The translations under genes were made by a program, and so were the position numbers. Below are positions 51,826-63,507 of a DNA stretch of 64,000 nt, in pieces. The stretch comes from Candidatus Gastranaerophilales bacterium (GTDB lineage Bacteria; Cyanobacteriota; Vampirovibrionia; Gastranaerophilales; Gastranaerophilaceae). Under the pieces are notes generated by a model. The model was not told the DNA's origin. It searched no databases and saw only the letters and a program-made list of their open reading frames with translations. The stretch lies in contig CALUPY010000009.1 of NCBI GenBank assembly GCA_944322755.1, positions 1 through 64,000 on the forward strand, read 5' to 3'. Numbering within the stretch: position 1 is the first letter of the stretch; each line of letters opens with the position of its first letter.

Positions 51826-51901
51826 GCTCCCATCGTCTAGAGGCCTAGGACACATCCCTTTCACGGATGCGACAGGGGTTCAAATCCCCTTGGGAGTACC
51901 A
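51826..51901 (+). tRNA. tRNA-Glu (anticodon TTC)
   Basis: A 76-nt cloverleaf with encoded CCA. The acceptor stem is GCTCCCA/TGGGAGT, the anticodon stem CATCC/GGATG encloses CTTTCAC, and the T arm is AGGGG-TTCAAAT-CCCCT. The 3' end marks the junction with the accessory region and is a usual att site for integrative elements. No second copy of the 3' end is seen before the window ends. Confidence 0.95.
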
Positions 51902-51905
51902 TTTT

Positions 51906-51929
51906 AAAAGAGCCGAAAGGCTCTTTTTT
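51906..51929 (+). terminator. tRNA-Glu terminator
   Basis: AAAAGAGCC (51906-51914) pairs with GGCTCTTTT (51919-51927) over a GAAA tetraloop, with a T-run overlapping the stem. Confidence 0.9.
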
Positions 51930-52035: not shown

Positions 52036-53214
52036 ATGAAAGTTGCAGACAAACGTATATTATACTTGATTATTGATGCTCTCTTTAATCAACAGCAAGA
52101 AAAAAAATACCTTATTGAACTTGATTGTATAAAAGATTTTTTGTCTTTAGATGAACAAAAAATCCTGTACACAAAGGATTATTCAACAACAGATTGGGAT
52201 AAAATTTCTGAATACAGAAGAAAAATTGTCGACATTTTAGACACATTGCGGTTGAATTTTGGTTGTGAAGTCTCTTTGAATATAAAGACGGATTTTATTG
52301 AGGCGACAACTCAAGAAATCGGTATGGGATTTTTAGCAGCAGAGGCTTATCAATCAATAATTGAGGATTGTCAAAGACTTTCCGATACGGACTCAATTTT
52401 AAATGTTTTTATAAAGTACCGTTCGTCATTGTTTGCAAAAGATACTGACCAAAATGATATGCCTGATACTTTGATAAAAACAGCTGATAAACTTTTTCTT
52501 CAAAGAACATCTGTAAATATTTATTTATCTGAACCCAAAATTCTTGAACAAAAATTAACCAGTTATGCTGAAGCATATGAAAACAACAGCTTAGACAGAA
52601 TTGTTCATTATGATGAAAAAGAACATTTTTCTGTAATTAATAAAATTTTGAAGCTTGCCTTCAAAAATTCAGAAGGTTTTCCTTTCAGTATTTTAAATTT
52701 GAATAAAAGTATAGAAAAACCCGAAGATTATAATTTGCCTGTTTTTCTTTGGTTGTCAAAAAAACGTCTAAAATTAGATATACGAAATATTGATTGTGAG
52801 ATGTCAACAAGCCCATTCAGAATTACAAAATTTGATGTTACTGTAGGCAAAGTAAAAAGAAAAAATCTTAAAATTACAGACAAAAAGACTGATTTTTATA
52901 ATGATGATTTTATACATTTTGAAATGTATTCAGATGATAAAATTAAACAAATTGTTTACGAAAATCAAATTATTCAACTAACTTATAATCAGTTGTTTGT
53001 TATACATACTCTTTGCAATAAATCTAAAAATGATGATGTTATGCAGAAAATCAAAAATGTGTACAAAACACATGGTTCATTAAGAAAGATGAAAAGTGAT
53101 ATAAATAAAGCTTTTTTAAGAGCCGGAGTTTATGACTTTTTAGAGTCCAGCGGTCAAAAAGATAACTATAGACTGGATATAACGACCGCATATAAAATAG
53201 AAAAACATAAATAA
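52036..53214 (+). CDS. Unrecognised 392-residue protein, possible C-terminal winged helix
   Basis: First gene of the accessory region, 134 bp after the tRNA. No family was recognised. It is soluble and rich in Lys, Asp and Ile. The first 60 residues are helical (RILYLIIDALFNQQQEKKYL). The last 90 residues (IIQLTYNQLFVIHTLCNKSK, then KTHGSLRKMKSDINKAFLRA and DNYRLDI) read like a winged-helix DNA-binding domain similar to response-regulator outputs. It may be the element's master regulator. AGGAAC precedes the ATG. Confidence 0.6.
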   Translation: MKVADKRILYLIIDALFNQQQEKKYLIELDCIKDFLSLDEQKILYTKDYSTTDWDKISEYRRKIVDILDTLRLNFGCEVSLNIKTDFIEATTQEIGMGFLAAEAYQSIIEDCQRLSDTDSILNVFIKYRSSLFAKDTDQNDMPDTLIKTADKLFLQRTSVNIYLSEPKILEQKLTSYAEAYENNSLDRIVHYDEKEHFSVINKILKLAFKNSEGFPFSILNLNKSIEKPEDYNLPVFLWLSKKRLKLDIRNIDCEMSTSPFRITKFDVTVGKVKRKNLKITDKKTDFYNDDFIHFEMYSDDKIKQIVYENQIIQLTYNQLFVIHTLCNKSKNDDVMQKIKNVYKTHGSLRKMKSDINKAFLRAGVYDFLESSGQKDNYRLDITTAYKIEKHK

Positions 53215-53335: not shown

Positions 53336-53560
53336 ATGAAAACTGATGAATTTAAGGAAAGTGTGGAAAAAAAGTATGGTCGTTACATCCTACTTACAGA
53401 CTGGAACAAATATTTTGATTATCCAAAATTGGGGACATTGCGCTCGCTTGTTTTTAATGCACACAAAAACGGCTTCAACAAAGTAATCCGTAGGATAGGC
53501 AACAGGATAGTAATTAATGTTGATAAGTTTTATGTTTGGCTGGATAAGTACGGACAATAA
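53336..53560 (+). CDS. AlpA/excisionase-like small DNA-binding protein
   Basis: 74 residues with a strong GGAG site. The pattern LGTLRSLVFNAHKNGFNKVI, then RRIGNRIVINVDKFYVWLDK, fits the winged-helix excisionase/AlpA type: a helix reading the target, an Arg-rich turn, then a beta hairpin ending in a W-L. Such proteins bend att DNA or activate integrase. It lies in the middle of the replication-side genes with 120-bp non-coding stretches on both sides. Confidence 0.6.
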   Translation: MKTDEFKESVEKKYGRYILLTDWNKYFDYPKLGTLRSLVFNAHKNGFNKVIRRIGNRIVINVDKFYVWLDKYGQ

Positions 53561-53686: not shown

Positions 53687-54445
53687 ATGATTACGCTCGA
53701 CAGAGTTCGTTTACTGGTGCCAGAAAATAAGGTCACAGAGGTAAATGAAAATGACTTTGACACTTTCAGTAATAAAATCACTGTAAAAAAAGAAATTTTA
53801 AGTAACATAGTCGGTGTACGTGAAATCTCATATATAAACAATTCATTCCTTTTGGACGTCAGCGGAAAAATCACTGCAGACAAGGGCTACTTAGGTTTAA
53901 TCCATAAAAATAATATAAAAGAGGTCTTTGAAAAAATAGACAACACGGGAATCTTAAGGTTTAACAGTTCACCTGTTGAAACTTCTCAGGTTCTTTACCT
54001 TGATGTGACAAAAGATGTCGAAGTGGAAAATCCTCTTGAAACCCTGACAGCTATTGAACTTTTTGCCACTCAAAGAAAACATAAAAATAAAATTTTACCA
54101 TTCAAAAACTCAGGATTAATCATAAAACCTCACGCAAAAAGCGTGTCTGACAGTTTAGGTATTTACCTGAAATACAAAGAAATAATCCAAAACAAGTCAC
54201 CGAAAAACCGGCTATATATTGAAAAAATAGGTATTGAAACGATTGAAAAGATTAAAAAGACTGTTCGTTTGGAGCGTCATTTAGGAACTTTTAAAGATAT
54301 AAGAAAGGCTTTCAAAACTAACAGTAAAAAAATTAGATTGAAAGAAATTCTTCACTCAAAAAAAAATCCTGTTAAAGACAAATTCTGTGAAATTACATCA
54401 AGCCACGAGGATGACTGGTTTACAGCAGGGAATGAGGTGTTTTGA
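53687..54445 (+). CDS. Probable phage/plasmid replication initiator (gene II/X-like)
   Basis: 252 residues. AAGGAG precedes the ATG. The N-terminus ITLDRVRLLVPENKV, the middle VLYLDVTKDVEVENPLETLT and YLKYKEI, and VRLERHLGTFKDIRKAF resemble the rolling-circle initiators related to filamentous-phage gene II/X proteins. The catalytic Tyr cannot be fixed by eye; Tyr residues in GIYLKYKEI and NRLYIEKIG are candidates. It ends TGATG into the next gene, so translation is coupled. Assignment is moderate. Confidence 0.45.
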   Translation: MITLDRVRLLVPENKVTEVNENDFDTFSNKITVKKEILSNIVGVREISYINNSFLLDVSGKITADKGYLGLIHKNNIKEVFEKIDNTGILRFNSSPVETSQVLYLDVTKDVEVENPLETLTAIELFATQRKHKNKILPFKNSGLIIKPHAKSVSDSLGIYLKYKEIIQNKSPKNRLYIEKIGIETIEKIKKTVRLERHLGTFKDIRKAFKTNSKKIRLKEILHSKKNPVKDKFCEITSSHEDDWFTAGNEVF

Positions 54446-54690
54446 TGAAAATTAAAATTCAAAAATTTTTGAAAAAAGTTGGGATGAGGACAATTTTGAC
54501 CAATTTTGACGATGACATAAGTGCTGTTAGAAAAATGTTAAAACTCGAGTGTGAATTTTCCTCACCCAGCACACTAAACACGGTGATAGCCTCATTTAAA
54601 AAGGAACTGAAAGAAAAAATATCTAAAAATAAAAATTTTTTCAGGTATCAAAAAATTGTACAGGATTTAATTAAAAAGATTGGAGAATAA
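54445..54690 (+). CDS. Small basic protein coupled to Rep and ATPase genes
   Basis: 81 residues, helical and Lys-rich (KIKIQKFLKKVGMRTILTNF, then DISAVRKMLKLECEF). The ATG at 54445 overlaps the Rep stop (TGATG). It ends two bases before the next start, whose Shine-Dalgarno lies in its last codons. No family was recognised. Its place inside the replication cluster suggests an accessory DNA-binding or loading role. Confidence 0.6.
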   Translation: MKIKIQKFLKKVGMRTILTNFDDDISAVRKMLKLECEFSSPSTLNTVIASFKKELKEKISKNKNFFRYQKIVQDLIKKIGE

Positions 54691-54691
54691 A

Positions 54692-56110
54692 ATGAACATG
54701 CCTAAAACACCTATTATTATTGAAAAAACCACAAATTTTCTTTTAACTTTACAGCCAAATTTGTATTCCAAAGCCGCATTACTGCTGACTATTGTTAAAT
54801 TTATGCAGGCTTTAAGTTACAAAAGGCTTAGATTTAACACCTGCTTTGGGACAAGAATAACAAATATTTTCGCACTTGTTTTTCTCCCAAGCGGTGGAGG
54901 AAAAGACCTCGCCTGCAAAAATCTTGAAAATTTTATTCTTAACTCAATTTTTGAAGAGTTCAGCGAAAAATCAAAAGCTGAATATAAAAAGGACTACGAC
55001 AAGCTACAGCAGATGTACATGGGCAAAAAAATACCAAAATCAGAGCTTAACAAAATATTTCCCATCGCATTGGAGTCACAGAATGCAACTCCTGAGGGGC
55101 TAAAAAAAATTGCAGATTTCCTAAATACTAAAGACTTCGGCGGTATTTTCCTGTTTGTTTCTGAATTAGCATATATTTTTTCAGGCAGTAAGGGGGTTGA
55201 GCTGTTGTATTATCTTTTAGGATGTTATGACGGTAAAATCGCAGGGAAGTCTATTAAAGCTGACAATCAAGGTGAGGCTGTTAAAAACATCTCTATCAGT
55301 TTTTTAGGCTTTTCTGACCCTGAACGGTTTTTCAACAACACAAACGTAAACTTTAACGCTCTATTAGCGACAGGACTGGCAAGAAGAACTTTTTTAATTT
55401 TCCAACCAACACTACCCAAAAATCAATTTCTCCAAGCTGAAAGAAATTTAATAAAACACGCAAAAGACAAGGCAGAAAGGCTTTCAAAGGAAGTCAAAGA
55501 TATTATTGATAAGTTACCGTACGAGGGGGTTTTTAATGTTTCAAACACAGCCTACGACAACATATTTGTTGAATACAAACAGAACTGCTTACAAAAATCA
55601 GAAACAATGGAAAATCCTCACCTGCAAAAAGAGATAAAAGACAGACCTTTAAAGGTGTTAAATATAGCTTCCCTCTACGCGGTTTTAAATCATCCGACAG
55701 AAAATGTTGTTACAGAAACAGACTTAAAACAAGCAATTGAGACGGTAGAATACTTAAGTACTGACCTTGAAAAATTTATTAACTACACACCGCAAAAATA
55801 TGACCAGTACCAGCAGTTCTTTGAGTTTTTGAAACGAAACAAAAATAAAGCTTTTGCCAAAACAGAACTCATCACAAAATATTATTCAGAAACGGGATTT
55901 AGCAGAAAAATATTAAGAAAAGATTTTGATGAGATAGTTTCTGTTGTCAAAGAAATAGCTGATATGAACGGTTTTACAGTCTTATCAAATTTCTTCCATA
56001 ACAACATCGGACAGAAAATAACATTAAAGGATAAGGTTCAACCTGTTGAAAACTGTAAAATTTCTCATATTTCCCCTGTTGATAACACGGAAAACGTTTA
56101 TGTTAGTTGA
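54692..56110 (+). CDS. DUF3987-like P-loop ATPase (primase/helicase type)
   Basis: 472 residues from the ATG at 54692, after TGGAG. LVFLPSGGGKDLACKNLENF (about 63-82) is a Walker-A-like loop in which GGGKD replaces GxGKS/T. GIFLFVSELAYIFSG (near 155) supplies a Walker-B-like strand with Glu, and the ATGLARRTFLIF segment has a possible Arg finger. The layout matches the DUF3987 proteins of phages and plasmids, thought to be replicative ATPases. The C-terminal 100 residues look like a winged helix. It ends the Rep operon. Confidence 0.6.
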   Translation: MNMPKTPIIIEKTTNFLLTLQPNLYSKAALLLTIVKFMQALSYKRLRFNTCFGTRITNIFALVFLPSGGGKDLACKNLENFILNSIFEEFSEKSKAEYKKDYDKLQQMYMGKKIPKSELNKIFPIALESQNATPEGLKKIADFLNTKDFGGIFLFVSELAYIFSGSKGVELLYYLLGCYDGKIAGKSIKADNQGEAVKNISISFLGFSDPERFFNNTNVNFNALLATGLARRTFLIFQPTLPKNQFLQAERNLIKHAKDKAERLSKEVKDIIDKLPYEGVFNVSNTAYDNIFVEYKQNCLQKSETMENPHLQKEIKDRPLKVLNIASLYAVLNHPTENVVTETDLKQAIETVEYLSTDLEKFINYTPQKYDQYQQFFEFLKRNKNKAFAKTELITKYYSETGFSRKILRKDFDEIVSVVKEIADMNGFTVLSNFFHNNIGQKITLKDKVQPVENCKISHISPVDNTENVYVS

Positions 56111-56325: not shown

Positions 56326-56553
56326 GTGGATAATTCACAACAAATTGTCAACATACAAAATCAGATAGATCAAGAACAAACCCGTCACCATAATCGCATG
56401 CAAGCACTAAAGAAAAGTCTTGAAAACGCAAGGCAGGCAAACGAAAAAGTTTTGTTTTATCAAAGATTGTATGAAAAATTTGACCGTAAAGGTATGACAA
56501 CGGCTCAAATTATTCGTTGTCTTGATATTCTTATGAGTGAGTACGGATATTAG
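56326..56553 (+). CDS. Small coiled-coil protein
   Basis: 75 residues from a GTG at 56326 with AAAGGAG eight bases upstream. The first 50 residues are a long amphipathic helix with Gln, Arg and Leu heptads (QIDQEQTRHHNRMQALKKSL). The last 25 (GMTTAQIIRCLDILMSEYGY) may be a small helical cap. Function unknown. Its stop overlaps that of the convergent WG-repeat gene. Confidence 0.55.
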   Translation: MDNSQQIVNIQNQIDQEQTRHHNRMQALKKSLENARQANEKVLFYQRLYEKFDRKGMTTAQIIRCLDILMSEYGY

Positions 56554-57536
56554 TATTGTTGTTTTGGTATTGACCAGACAAACTCACCTTTTGTGTTTAT
56601 ATATCCTTCACGAGTATTAGAAACAACATAAGCTAGATCATTTACAAGATATGCTGAACCAAAACTTGAATAATCTAAACTTTGATTTGAAAAGCTTTGT
56701 GCATACTCAAGAGTTGGTTTAACAATATATTCCCCTTTTTTATTTATGTAACCGAACTTTCCGTTCAATTTTACAAGAGCTACACCATTAGCAAAATCAG
56801 GACTCCAGTAACTAAATCCCGGAGGTGGGCATTCATAAATTGGCTCTTTAATTATTTTGCCGTCTTCTGTTATGTATCCATATTTTGTTGTATCACTGTT
56901 ATCAAATCTTTTTACACCTTCATGGTATGGATACTCTCCGAGAGAAAGTGATGGTGAAGTGTTTAGCGATGATTCAGGCTCTTGATAAGGAATCTTTTCA
57001 CCTTTTATAGTTATGTAAAATTGTTCGGCTATATCATCATCGATATTTCTGTCGCTATTTGCAATTGTAATAAATGCTTTCCCTCCGATAAAGACTGGAG
57101 TTGATGTTCCTTCCATTGGAATAAAATTTTTAAAAGGTTTTAGTCTCATTACTTGATTTCCATTGGTATCAAATATTGTGTACTGAATTATATCGGGAGT
57201 ATTGAACTCATCATCTAGTGTGGTAAGTGCTTTGCCTAAAAAAGCATACCCTTCGTTAAATTCTCCAATTATAACATATTCTTTTTTATCCACTTCAAAT
57301 ACAGGTTTTCCGTATTTATTTATAAATACAACTTTGTCTTTTTTCATTTTATATACAGGATACAACTTATTTTCTTGTATTTTTTTTGAGTCAGTAGATA
57401 AAAATTCAACAAAGTTATTTTTTTTGTTTTCTGTTTTTTTCGTATTAATAATGTCTGTTAACAGTACAAAATCAAAAATTAAAAAAATTAATGCTAAAAC
57501 AATTAATACAAGATTTTTCAATTTTATTTTAATCAT
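56550..57536 (-). CDS. Membrane-anchored WG-repeat protein
   Basis: 328 residues from the ATG at 57536 (GAGGA precedes it). An N-terminal membrane helix (LKNLVLIVLALIFLIFDFVL) anchors it, and the rest is extracytoplasmic. It has repeated WG-type units: KVVFINKYGKPVFEVDKKEY, KYGYITEDGKIIKEPIYE, GKFGYINKKGEYIVKPTLEY, and EGYINTKGEFVWSI. WG repeats form a beta-rich surface often used for protein binding at the envelope. Last gene of the four-gene minus-strand cargo block, 4 bp after its neighbour. Confidence 0.8.
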   Translation of the reverse strand: MIKIKLKNLVLIVLALIFLIFDFVLLTDIINTKKTENKKNNFVEFLSTDSKKIQENKLYPVYKMKKDKVVFINKYGKPVFEVDKKEYVIIGEFNEGYAFLGKALTTLDDEFNTPDIIQYTIFDTNGNQVMRLKPFKNFIPMEGTSTPVFIGGKAFITIANSDRNIDDDIAEQFYITIKGEKIPYQEPESSLNTSPSLSLGEYPYHEGVKRFDNSDTTKYGYITEDGKIIKEPIYECPPPGFSYWSPDFANGVALVKLNGKFGYINKKGEYIVKPTLEYAQSFSNQSLDYSSFGSAYLVNDLAYVVSNTREGYINTKGEFVWSIPKQQY

Positions 57537-57540
57537 ATTT

Positions 57541-58311
57541 TTAATCCTCATAGTTTTTGTTTAATTGGTAATACTTTTGGTATGAACTCTCATTTCGACC
57601 TTCCTTTTTACAAGAATTTATATTTGCCGAAATAGAATAACATTCTGAAAAGTTACCTGTACAAGTAAATATTTCATATTCAACAGGACAGATTAATTTA
57701 GTAAAAGCACGGTCTTTAATTGAGAAAATAATATCAGCTTTACAATAATAATGAGAAATGTCTTTATTCAAAGTTTCAATATTTGTAATTGTTTTGCCTA
57801 TTATATCAGGATAAATCCCCATAGTTGTTTCAAAAACTCTTAAGTATTTATGATACTTCGCTGCTTTAACATAGGAATCATAATCTTCTTGTTTTACTCC
57901 TGCGGTATCAAGGTAATTATTTAGGACAAAAAATTTAATTAAATTTCCATCACAGGGTGAAACGGATATTTTTACGTTTGAAACTGTTTTGTTTTTTCTG
58001 TCATATTGATAATAAAATAATGGAGGGTGTTCATCTCCAGTATTATAAACAAATGCACTGCACATTAAAGCGTCACTTGTCGAAAAAATTTGTTCTGTAT
58101 TGTTAAAAACAAGGTTTTTATCTAAAAGTATTGAGTACTGATTTTTTAAAGCAATGGCTAAAGAGTTTTGAACTTTTTCTGATGAACAACTTTCAACAGA
58201 AGAAAGACCAAAATCTATAAGCACAAGACACAGGTAAAATATCACAGGTGCGGAAATTAAAGCAAAAAACACAATTATAATTATATTTTTCTTTTTATGA
58301 TTAGAAATCAT
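57541..58311 (-). CDS. Membrane-anchored extracytoplasmic protein, unknown
   Basis: 256 residues from the ATG at 58311 (GAAGGT upstream). One N-terminal membrane helix (KNIIIIVFFALISAPVIFYL) is followed by an extracytoplasmic domain with six or more cysteines (SVESCSSEKV, SPCDGNL, SHYYCKAD, KLICPVEY, CTGNFSECYS, NSCKKEG), enough for disulphides. No family was recognised. It sits between the immunity-type gene and the WG-repeat gene with very short spacers, so it is part of the same operon. Confidence 0.65.
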   Translation of the reverse strand: MISNHKKKNIIIIVFFALISAPVIFYLCLVLIDFGLSSVESCSSEKVQNSLAIALKNQYSILLDKNLVFNNTEQIFSTSDALMCSAFVYNTGDEHPPLFYYQYDRKNKTVSNVKISVSPCDGNLIKFFVLNNYLDTAGVKQEDYDSYVKAAKYHKYLRVFETTMGIYPDIIGKTITNIETLNKDISHYYCKADIIFSIKDRAFTKLICPVEYEIFTCTGNFSECYSISANINSCKKEGRNESSYQKYYQLNKNYED

Positions 58312-58318
58312 ATTAAAA

Positions 58319-58825
58319 TTACCTTCTGCCACCTGATAACGCCCAAATTAAAGCAATTACCCAACCAATTAAACTCCAACCAAAAAATAAATTAACAACA
58401 AAGATAGCTGTTGTTGACGGATTGTTTCTTATTTCTGCAATCCAAGCAGGAATAAAATATATCCATAAAATAAAAACTATAGCTAATGACATTAAAAATG
58501 CAGTAAACCCGTCCTGTAAAGCACTGTTTAAGATACCTAAAGAACTCAAAAAAACAATTATGGACAAAATTGTATAACACCCAAGAGGAGTATCTCTTTC
58601 TAACCATTCGCCACATTTCGGACATTTCTTTGCATGTCTAGGGACTGGAGAATAACAATACGGACATTTTATCATACTTTCGTTATTCTCATCGTCTCTG
58701 TATTCGTTAACATCAGATTGTATTATATTTTTTTCTGTGTCTTGTAATTCAACTAACTTGTTGCCACAATTTTTACAAAATTTGTCAGTTTCCGTACACT
58801 CAAAACCACATTTTGGACAATACAT
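58319..58825 (-). CDS. Zinc-ribbon protein with superinfection-immunity-type membrane domain
   Basis: 168 residues from the ATG at 58825 (AGCAGGT upstream). Two zinc ribbons (MYCPKCGFE with CKNCGNK, and IKCPYCYSPV with CPKCGEW) are followed by three membrane segments. The last 60 residues, IYFIPAWIAEIRNNPSTTAI and VNLFFGWSLIGWVIALIWAL, match the superinfection immunity (Imm) family by the FLPxxxA, FxxNLxxGWTxxGWxxALxWA pattern. T4 Imm blocks DNA injection by related phage. Whether this one does is inference; the domain is also widespread in bacteria. Confidence 0.75.
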   Translation of the reverse strand: MYCPKCGFECTETDKFCKNCGNKLVELQDTEKNIIQSDVNEYRDDENNESMIKCPYCYSPVPRHAKKCPKCGEWLERDTPLGCYTILSIIVFLSSLGILNSALQDGFTAFLMSLAIVFILWIYFIPAWIAEIRNNPSTTAIFVVNLFFGWSLIGWVIALIWALSGGRR

Positions 58826-58848
58826 ATTTACCTGCTTTCTTTTTATTT

Positions 58849-59337
58849 TTAATTCCTCATACTTTCGCAAACCTGTTTTTGTTGTTCGTAATAACCGCTG
58901 TTTTTTAAATTTTCTTTTCTCCATTTCACACGTTCGAGATGTTGTTTGTAGGCAGTATTTTGGTCATACCCCATAGTTCGGTAATAACATTTTTCAATAT
59001 CTGAGCCAATATCAGAAATTGTCAGACCTTTTTGTACTCGTTGAAATATAATGTAACAGGGTCTAATATTCCCGCATATATGGTCACATGCCTGTTTAGA
59101 TTTTTGAGCGGAAAAATCATCATAAGAAAGAACAACCTTTAACAATTTTAATTCATCAAAGCATGCCTGTTTTTGGGATTTTGGTTCTATTGTTTTTTGA
59201 GGTCGAGTATGTTCCTGATATTCTGTGTTGTAATTTCTCAAAGGCATATTCAAGCCCTCTATCTCAACTTCATAGTAAGCAAATACAGCCTTTTGAAGCA
59301 GTAGAGTTATAAATAACAGGATAAGTATTTTTTTCAT
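58849..59337 (-). CDS. Secreted cysteine-containing protein, unknown
   Basis: 162 residues with a clear signal peptide (KKILILLFITLLLQKAVFA). The mature part is polar and has cysteines at ACFDEL, ACDHICGNIRPCY, KCYYRTMGY and QVCESM, compatible with disulphides. It is the first gene of the minus-strand cargo block and starts with AAGG upstream. It is transcribed away from the XRE regulator, so the regulator may control it. No family was recognised. Confidence 0.6.
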   Translation of the reverse strand: MKKILILLFITLLLQKAVFAYYEVEIEGLNMPLRNYNTEYQEHTRPQKTIEPKSQKQACFDELKLLKVVLSYDDFSAQKSKQACDHICGNIRPCYIIFQRVQKGLTISDIGSDIEKCYYRTMGYDQNTAYKQHLERVKWRKENLKNSGYYEQQKQVCESMRN

Positions 59338-59396: not shown

Positions 59397-59425
59397 TTTT
59401 ATTATACATATAACGCATAATAAAA
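59397..59425. promoter_or_regulatory. Candidate operator between cargo block and XRE regulator
   Basis: TTTTATTA (59397-59404) and TAATAAAA (59418-59425) are exact inverted arms 13 nt apart, in the 160-bp gap between divergent genes. This is a plausible binding site for the adjacent XRE repressor, although AT-richness makes chance possible. Confidence 0.4.
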
Positions 59426-59497: not shown

Positions 59498-59818
59498 ATG
59501 TCATCGGGCAACAAAGTATTCGGAAAACGTATAAAAGAACTCAGGGAGAGGAAAAAACTTACACAGGAAAAACTAGCTGAAAAAGTAGGACTGGATTTAC
59601 AAACAATAAGTCGTATAGAAACAGGATATTACTTCACGAGTTTTGAAAACCTTGAAAAACTGGCAAACGCTCTTGATGTCACAATGGCTGATTTATTTAA
59701 CTTCGGACACTTAAAGACAAAAGAAGAATTGATAAAAGAAATCAACACAGAACTTTCAACCTCATCAGAAAAAGATGTTCAAAGAATACACAAGCTTATT
59801 TTCGGGTATTTGAAGTAA
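59498..59818 (+). CDS. XRE-family transcriptional regulator
   Basis: 106 residues. An N-terminal lambda-repressor-type HTH (FGKRIKELRERKKLTQEKLA, EKVGLDLQTISRIETGYYFT, SFENLEKLANALDVTMADLF) is followed by a short helical tail that may dimerise. AAAAGGAG precedes the ATG. It is divergent from the cargo block and convergent with the HNH gene, from which a two-way terminator separates it. Confidence 0.92.
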   Translation: MSSGNKVFGKRIKELRERKKLTQEKLAEKVGLDLQTISRIETGYYFTSFENLEKLANALDVTMADLFNFGHLKTKEELIKEINTELSTSSEKDVQRIHKLIFGYLK

Positions 59819-59855: not shown

Positions 59856-60176
59856 TTAGTAACAAATTCTTTTTTTTATGTTTTTGTTACCTTCTGAAGA
59901 AACAGATGTGCAGTAATGTGGATAATCATCACCTTTTGTACAATTATTTTCCCATTGTAGCGGTTGAAGATTCCCTAGATAATCAGAACCGCCTTGACTT
60001 TCAGGGACTATATGATCTATTTCCCAGCCATAGTCTGAATCTCTATTTCCGTATTGGTTATAGTTTATCCAAGCCCCTGATTTGTCTTTGCGCCATACAT
60101 TAGGGTCTGCCACATAAACTACATTACCTTTTTTCCATACTGCATCAATTGTTTCTGAATTAAAATATTTGGACAT
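59856..60176 (-). CDS. HNH endonuclease
   Basis: 106 residues from the ATG at 60176, chosen because AGGAG precedes it; a longer frame to 60224 lacks a site. The HNH core is GWEIDHIVPESQGGSDYLGN, followed by LQPLQWENNCTKGD: Asp-His, then the conserved Asn, then Asn with Lys. No DNA-binding domain is attached. It could be a homing-like or defence nuclease, or a phage terminase partner, although no terminase gene is seen nearby. Confidence 0.85.
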   Translation of the reverse strand: MSKYFNSETIDAVWKKGNVVYVADPNVWRKDKSGAWINYNQYGNRDSDYGWEIDHIVPESQGGSDYLGNLQPLQWENNCTKGDDYPHYCTSVSSEGNKNIKKRICY

Positions 60177-60224
60177 AATTTTATTTTCTCCTTTTGTTTT
60201 GTTGTACAAAATTGAACAAGACAA

Positions 60225-62192: not shown

Positions 62193-63008
62193 ATGAAAGA
62201 CAAACGGGTTAACATACCAAAGGAATTTAACAGGTTATTACATGAGGTTGATACCTCAAAATCAATGTCAGAAATTTTTAATGATTTTTTGACGTTATCA
62301 ATTTACTCAATAGCCCAACCTTTTTACAGGTCACAAATTATTGAAGAAAAATATTTAAACACGGCTAAAAAATATTCCAGAAAACAGCTTGATTACTTTG
62401 CTGCAATGAACGCTTACACTTTGATTTCACTTGATATGGGAATGAAAGATTTTTTAGGTGAAATGTTTAATATGAACGGTCTTGGAGAACACAGAAAAGG
62501 TCAATTCTGCTTGGGGGCTCGCGATAAACGGCGTTACGGGAAAGACTCAACGTCTTCCCCTTCAGCCTCTGCTCGCCTCCGCTTCACACCATACCATGTC
62601 AGTAAACTAATGGGGAGACTACACTGCATAAATCTAAAGGTAGATATTGAAAACAAAGATTTTATCACAATGTGTGAACCGTGTTGTGGTAGTGGCGGTA
62701 TGGTTATTGCCTTTGCGGATTGCATGAAAGAGGAAGGAATAAACTTTCAACAGAAATTATATGTAGAGGCAACGGATATTGAAGAAATATGTTATAAAAT
62801 GGCTTATTTACAGCTGTCTTTGTTGGGAATAGCCGCAAAAGTCCAACTTGGAGACAGTTTAACACTGAAGGTAAAAGAAAGATTATACACACCGATGTTT
62901 TTTATCAATGGGTTTTACAGACGACTCAAAGAATTTAAAGAAATTGAAGAAGTACAAAGTGGTGAACCCGTACAATTAAGGTTAATTGATGAGGAAATCA
63001 GAATTTAA
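62193..63008 (+). CDS. N-6 adenine methylase-like protein with a 25-codon insertion
   Basis: 271 residues. FTPYHVSKLMGRLHC and ITMCEPCCGSGGMVIAFADC are methylase motifs X and I (SAM binding), and VEATDIEEICYKMAYLQLSL is motif II/III. The catalytic NPPY/F motif IV is not present: where it is expected, after LGDSL, the sequence reads PMFFINGFYRR. Activity is therefore doubtful. Between GQF and FTP, residues 106-130 are a GC-rich insertion not expected in the family. AGGATAAG precedes the ATG. Confidence 0.7.
   Translation: MKDKRVNIPKEFNRLLHEVDTSKSMSEIFNDFLTLSIYSIAQPFYRSQIIEEKYLNTAKKYSRKQLDYFAAMNAYTLISLDMGMKDFLGEMFNMNGLGEHRKGQFCLGARDKRRYGKDSTSSPSASARLRFTPYHVSKLMGRLHCINLKVDIENKDFITMCEPCCGSGGMVIAFADCMKEEGINFQQKLYVEATDIEEICYKMAYLQLSLLGIAAKVQLGDSLTLKVKERLYTPMFFINGFYRRLKEFKEIEEVQSGEPVQLRLIDEEIRI
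62508..62582. repeat. GC-rich 75-nt in-frame insertion with internal hairpin
   Basis: These 75 nt (46 of 75 are G or C, 61%) split the expected GQF-FTP junction of the methylase without changing frame. A TTC codon stands on each side. The hairpin GGGAA-A-GAC/GTCTTCCC lies inside at 62538-62559. This resembles protein-coding palindromic elements such as those of Rickettsia. Confidence 0.5.
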
Positions 63009-63507
63009 GATAAACAAAAGTAGTTTTGAATTAAACAAACTCATTACAACAAGCAGAATGTTTTCAAAGGTTAAGCTTTCAACATCAGCTAAGCTTGTAT
63101 TGAGATGTATTGTTGACTTTTGGAATAATAAACTTGGTTATGCTTATCCGACACAAAGGACAATATCGGAATGTACGGGGTTGAGTAATGTTTCTGTTTT
63201 TCAGGCTATCAAAGAACTTGAGAGAAGTGGATTTATAAAAAAGAATAAAAAATATAAACGTTTAAGGTATGAATTTACTCTAAAATTGTGTTGTCACTTA
63301 AGTATAGGTGGGAATAATTCTTACGCACAAACAGTAGAAGAATTACAGAATAATATGAAAGAAACTGCCGATAATAATATATTAATAAATAAAGAAAATA
63401 ACGAGGATGTAAAAAAAGAAGTAGCAGGCATAATCATTAAAAATTTAGGTAGTAATCCTATTTTTAAACATAAAATAGAAGAATTAAAAGAAATAATAAA
63501 ACAATAA
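62989..63507 (+). CDS. Winged-helix DNA-binding protein (HTH_36-like)
   Basis: 172 residues from the ATG at 62989. It overlaps the end of the methylase-like gene by 20 nt, so the two are coupled. The domain at about 25-105 reads KLSTSAKLVLRCIVDFWNNK, YAYPTQRTISECTGLSNVSV, FQAIKELERSGFIKKNKKYK, the pattern of replication- or transcription-associated winged helices of plasmids and phages. The C-terminal third is Lys/Asn-rich and probably disordered. Confidence 0.8.
   Translation: MRKSEFKINKSSFELNKLITTSRMFSKVKLSTSAKLVLRCIVDFWNNKLGYAYPTQRTISECTGLSNVSVFQAIKELERSGFIKKNKKYKRLRYEFTLKLCCHLSIGGNNSYAQTVEELQNNMKETADNNILINKENNEDVKKEVAGIIIKNLGSNPIFKHKIEELKEIIKQ

Follow-up and report, generated by a model that had tools for sequence, protein, structure and literature searches.

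An exchangeable envelope-protein operon with an Imm_superinfect domain in a putative satellite-like element of Gastranaerophilales

Known exclusion proteins, satellites and cargo hotspots

During lytic infection, the Imm protein of phage T4 prevents translocation of the genome (PMC11436027, PMC6832632). In a 64,000-nt stretch of a Gastranaerophilales contig (hereafter, the window), we analysed an operon that encodes a protein comparable to Imm in two respects: it has an Imm_superinfect domain scoring above the Pfam cut-off, and it is a small predicted membrane protein carried by a mobile element. However, T4 Imm is a small stand-alone protein of a lytic phage, whereas the window protein consists of 168 aa, contains two zinc ribbons and belongs to an integrative element. 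Moreover, its gene sits in an operon divergent from an XRE regulator, where the neighbouring genes encode secreted or anchored partners, and no phage structural genes were detected on the element. P22 SieA, an inner-membrane exclusion protein of an integrated element, is a functional analogue only, with no sequence relation claimed (PMC10883804, PMC11436027).

The element itself is best compared with PICMI and other phage satellites (PMC10803314, PMC13376191), with which it has in common an integrase, a DUF3987 primase, att repeats, a size within 7-20 kb and a lack of detected structural genes. PICMI integrates beside fis, whereas the window element occupies tRNA-Glu; PICMI encodes an AlpA / HTH_17 regulator, whereas no AlpA-type domain was detected in the window gene at 53336-53560. 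The two also differ in host order, and the window element has several cargo slots. In the latter respect it resembles the anti-phage hotspots of P2 and P4 (PMC9122126), where conserved anchors likewise surround variable cargo, and PARIS is represented in one sibling of the window element. Unlike those hotspots, the putative anti-phage arrangement described here has an XRE anchor with a slot on either side, one of the slots being apparently specialised for envelope proteins.

The element in tRNA-Glu

Approximately 14.0 kb of DNA lies between two att repeats, the left one of which includes the 3' part of tRNA-Glu. The right end falls outside the 64,000-nt window, and positions above 64000 are contig coordinates read through L028. 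The features of the element outside the operon and its regulator are as follows; slots A and B are the variable segments described below.

51826..51901, plus strand: tRNA-Glu (TTC), integration site
51879..51912, plus strand: left att repeat, 34 bp, an exact direct repeat of contig 65888-65921 (L028:1888-1921)
52036..53214, plus strand: 392-aa element gene of no family, 97% identical in L024
53336..53560, plus strand: 74-aa gene at the position taken elsewhere by the excisionase/AlpA-like HTH gene
53687..54445, plus strand: 252-aa core gene with a weak, sub-cut-off match to a G2P-type replication protein
54680..56110, plus strand: core replication gene, DUF3987 / PHROG 'DNA primase' (PF13148, 28.0 bits vs cut-off 27)
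56326..56553, plus strand: 75-aa core gene adjoining slot B
59856..60224, minus strand: HNH-nuclease-like protein, slot A, identical in L023
60644..61330, plus strand: 228-aa protein with weak DnaD/replication-initiator similarity, slot A, identical in L023
61526..62113, plus strand: resolvase-type serine recombinase, core
62193..63008, plus strand: N6-methylase-like core gene
62986..63507, plus strand: HTH_36 / RepL-like core gene
contig 64130-65206 (L028:130-1206), minus strand: tyrosine integrase, close to where the element ends on the right (PF00589, 1.4e-33)

The 74-aa gene has no Pfam match, and its counterpart in L111 matches HTH_17 below the cut-off; it is 35-46% identical to genes located immediately upstream of the primase in L105, L109 and L122. 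An MNT-type nucleotidyltransferase gene is found near the right end (contig 65379-65711, L028:1379-1711), the L024 version of which adjoins a HEPN gene; no HEPN gene is among those listed for the window element. In the methylase-like gene, approx. 76 bp at 62507-62582 are absent from L022-L025 (271 vs 246 aa).

The earlier note had interpreted the block as a possible case of lysogenic conversion. Pfam and PHROG scans detected no phage structural genes among the element ORFs scanned, and prophage identity was rejected on this ground; conversion by a phage is thus not upheld, since the gene content resembles that of a satellite or integrative element. The best reading of the sequence is a satellite-like integrative element of Gastranaerophilales.

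The block is thus cargo of an element, as the earlier note had proposed, and the mobility of this element is shown by the att repeat at tRNA-Glu, the integrase and the comparison of the element with its flanks. In G180, which belongs to another genus, the left 7.9 kb of the element is 97.6% identical to the window and the adjoining chromosome (the mutS-side flank) 74.5%; in G064, of the same genus, the left 2.8 kb is 91.6% identical and the flank 83%. In both genomes the element is more similar than the neighbouring chromosome, as a result of horizontal transfer. An unoccupied tRNA-Glu site was not found among same-genus contigs, which either end there or carry the element there. Relatives of the primase were identified in 32 of 288 family genomes, representing 16 of 41 genera. 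They are usually accompanied by genes for an integrase and a small HTH protein, and often by an XRE of the window type. Given this wide occurrence with integrase and small HTH genes, the element belongs to a broad satellite-like family. The loci L103-L122 are DUF3987-primase integrative elements of Gastranaerophilales with varied cargo, often located beside an XRE gene.

The four-gene block

The block spans 56550-59337 and consists of four minus-strand ORFs:

58849..59337, minus strand: secreted Cys protein, 162 aa, predicted to be secreted, part of the anchor, encoded by each of the six siblings found
58319..58825, minus strand: cargo 2, double-zinc-ribbon protein of 168 aa that contains membrane helices and, C-terminally, an Imm_superinfect domain (Pfam, PHROG)
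57541..58311, minus strand: cargo 3, Cys-rich protein with an N-terminal anchor ('263 family')
56550..57536, minus strand: cargo 4, WG-repeat protein with an N-terminal anchor (Pfam WG_beta_rep)

With start codons chosen at ATG 59337 (secreted protein), ATG 58825 (Imm), ATG 58311 (263 family) and ATG 57536 (WG), the intergenic gaps amount to 23, 7 and 4 bp. The coordinates, gaps and products of a tight four-gene operon divergent from an XRE gene, as first described from the sequence, are thereby confirmed, as is the Imm-type domain: Imm_superinfect (PF14373) covers residues 155-196 of a longer, 201-aa ORF, with an E value of 4.9e-16 and 58.8 bits vs a cut-off of 27.9. The same protein matches the Pfam double zinc ribbon DZR (3.5e-9) and PHROG 1039, 'immunity to superinfection' (E 1.3e-18), and the WG protein matches WG_beta_rep (Pfam, E 1e-10). 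No Pfam family was found for the secreted Cys protein or for the 263-family protein.

Compared with L026, the four genes have dN/dS values of 0.18, 0.19, 0.11 and 0.21. Purifying selection thus acts on all four, which are real genes and not chance ORFs.

Structure prediction was not informative. AlphaFold models of the 263-family protein reached a mean pLDDT of 62.7 (3 sequences) and gave no PDB match with E <1e-3, TM-scores being approx. 0.3 at most; a hint of NTF2/cystatin-like domains was set aside in view of the poor model and the lack of a usable fold match. The model of the secreted Cys protein is also poor (pLDDT 48). No PADLOC model matched the Imm or WG protein, the two proteins scanned. 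A pattern search of IMG/VR found no relatives of the secreted protein or of the element primase, and phage records yielded none of the 263 protein. Promoter-like sites were no more frequent than in shuffled sequences, and no RNA family was matched except the tRNA.

The XRE regulator and the intergenic palindrome

Two features lie on the upstream side of the operon:

59397..59425, no strand: imperfectly conserved palindrome between XRE and the operon, 9-bp arms and 11-bp spacer, candidate operator
59498..59818, plus strand: XRE-family regulator, 106 aa, divergent from the cargo, part of the anchor (Pfam HTH_3, E 1.6e-17)

The XRE gene is the most constrained of those compared, with a dN/dS of 0.03 against L026 (0.11-0.21 for the block genes). 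The palindrome noted earlier as a possible XRE-binding site is present at exactly the position given, but its role fared less well. An equally good palindrome arose in 20 of 500 shuffles of the AT-rich XRE/operon intergenic region, and the site is truncated in L024 and disrupted in L025. The signal thus exceeds chance only weakly and is not kept intact throughout the siblings; it is a candidate XRE operator with weak support from the sequence.

Two exchangeable slots around an anchor

The sibling elements L022-L026 have core genes in common with the window element. In each, the XRE gene and the gene for the secreted protein (96-100% and 85-100% identity between siblings, respectively), together with the intergenic region between them, form an anchor, which is flanked by slots A and B, whose contents vary. 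L024, located at the tRNA-Glu site in another genus, is 97% identical to the window through slot B and the anchor but differs in slot A; conversely, L023 is 97% identical through the anchor and slot A but differs in slot B. Since the two siblings match opposite slots, the slots have been exchanged independently, which would be most simply explained by homologous recombination in the conserved flanks. These comparisons show a modular organisation of the cargo.

All four genes are found together in slot B of the window, of L024 in genome G180 (approx. 100% identical) and of L026 in G237 (approx. 80%), i.e., in 3 of 288 family genomes, and their order is conserved at 80% identity. Co-occurrence in other elements, which the earlier note had proposed to look for, is therefore observed, but a fixed combination is not: slot B of L022 and L023 contains only the secreted and WG genes, and that of L025 contains genes for the secreted protein, Imm, a TPR protein, a zinc-ribbon-263 protein and a TonB-type protein. 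Because slot B contents differ between siblings, the block is better described as a recurrent but variable cargo set. In L025, the 263 protein is fused to an N-terminal zinc ribbon, suggesting that the zinc-ribbon and 263 parts work together. Among the 288 family genomes, 6 encode the secreted protein, and 4 of these 6 also have an intact 263 gene, which does not occur in genomes that lack the secreted protein. In a more distant element, L030, the XRE, a small secreted protein, a zinc-ribbon Imm protein (47% identity), the resolvase and HTH_36 have been kept.

In slot A, L024 carries an AriA/AriB (PARIS-like) pair (L024:7221-9516), and L025 a 1020-aa protein composed of SIR2, an nSTAND NTPase and TPR (L025:6377-9439); with these, the setting can be called rich in anti-phage genes. 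The slot A genes of L026 and L022 encode large P-loop proteins with no firm defence assignment. A third variable site, empty in the window, is located in the gap between the resolvase and methylase genes, where L022 (4459-7116), L025 (3031-5493) and L023 (4617-7228) contain 2.4-2.7 kb of extra sequence with some genes for secreted proteins.

Imm-domain proteins in the family

The Imm_superinfect domain occurs in 65 of the 288 family genomes, which represent 20 of the 41 genera, but the three other genomes of the same genus lack it; homologues are present in >1,400 phage records. Two forms can be distinguished in the clade. The short standalone proteins occupy fixed chromosomal positions in genera g22 and g36 (loci with constant neighbourhoods are L086, L090, L096, L098 and L099, as well as L085 and L097), whereas the zinc-ribbon form occurs in operons, is patchy and is associated with mobile elements. 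A housekeeping distribution, which the earlier note had regarded as evidence against its reading, thus appears to apply to the former and not to the latter; given the standalone proteins, the name of the domain is in itself no proof of phage exclusion.

A divergent XRE gene lies within 5 kb upstream of the zinc-ribbon Imm gene in 12 of 18 loci, four of the 12 being siblings of the window element. By chance, approx. 0.02 per locus would be expected from the density of HTH_3 genes (median 16 per roughly 2-Mb genome). A large part of the block recurs in L071, with very different sequences: here, the genes divergent from XRE encode a WG protein, an anchored protein of 203 aa, a small secreted protein and three membrane proteins with zinc ribbons, of which one has TM2 and another Imm. 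L070 has a similar gene set. Both operons (L071:6959-10538, L070:6118-9748) are larger and include WG, TM2 and three membrane proteins with zinc ribbons, among them an Imm protein. Genes near zinc-ribbon Imm operons include type II restriction-modification and Vsr (L071), HamB of Hachiman and DarT (L072), LmuB of Lamassu (L078) and AbiLi (L030). Such neighbours support a defence role, although they are no proof of it, as this co-location would be expected for any cargo of these elements. XRE genes of the same type also diverge from pilin-like genes (L085:9456-12338, L099:8978-10639).

Possible functions of the block

The block is most plausibly slot-B cargo of the 14-kb satellite-like element in tRNA-Glu, with an envelope-acting role in phage exclusion that we consider probable at middling confidence. 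As siblings carry anti-phage systems in the adjacent slot, the block genes may keep other viruses out. On the topology and regulation that we infer, XRE would hold the operon at a low level until a signal relieves this control; the zinc-ribbon Imm protein would reside in the inner membrane with its ribbons facing the cytoplasm, and the 263 and WG proteins would display periplasmic or outer domains. Jointly, the products might interfere with the entry of genomes from competing phages or elements, in the manner of superinfection exclusion by T4 Imm or P22 SieA. Exclusion is favoured because of the analogy with T4 Imm and the recurring link to defence cargo (cf. the P2/P4 hotspots).

It is less likely, but possible, that the operon is general envelope-fitness cargo under XRE (stress sensing, surface adhesion or nutrient handling) with no phage role, and that Imm is a common two-helix membrane module. 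The standalone Imm genes at constant loci in g22 and g36 do look like housekeeping genes, XREs of the same type adjoin pilin-like genes in L085 and L099, slot B of L025 carries TPR and TonB-type proteins, and neither the WG nor the TM2 proteins are annotated as defence proteins. However, the patchy zinc-ribbon form on mobile elements, with known defence genes in the adjacent slot or nearby, is at variance with this explanation.

We find it unlikely that the operon serves the element itself, either by excluding a second copy or by changing the envelope so that a helper phage or conjugative plasmid can more easily take it up or release it. A satellite-like gene content would need a helper (PMC10803314, PMC13376191), and the secreted anchor protein is conserved in every sibling; nevertheless, slot B varies while the core is constant, unlike a function that the element needs. 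Finally, degenerate or recently gained passenger genes without selected function, which the differing slot B sets of close siblings might suggest, are highly improbable and largely refuted by the dN/dS values of 0.11-0.21 for all four genes, together with the gene order conserved between divergent copies.

Returning to exclusion, a broader idea can be put forward, albeit with considerable doubt: the XRE-divergent zinc-ribbon Imm operons, with their WG, TM2 or secreted partners, in several unrelated backgrounds within Gastranaerophilales, might together constitute a single, hitherto undescribed envelope defence system of several components, which would block genome entry and whose zinc-ribbon proteins would link a sensor in the membrane or periplasm to the cytoplasm. 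No publication joining Gastranaerophilales, phage and defense systems was found in the paper library searched. The recurring XRE / zinc-ribbon Imm operon is a concrete candidate for membrane-level defence, and the element family gives Gastranaerophilales a defined set of swappable, putative anti-phage cargo, more of which may be found by means of the anchor.
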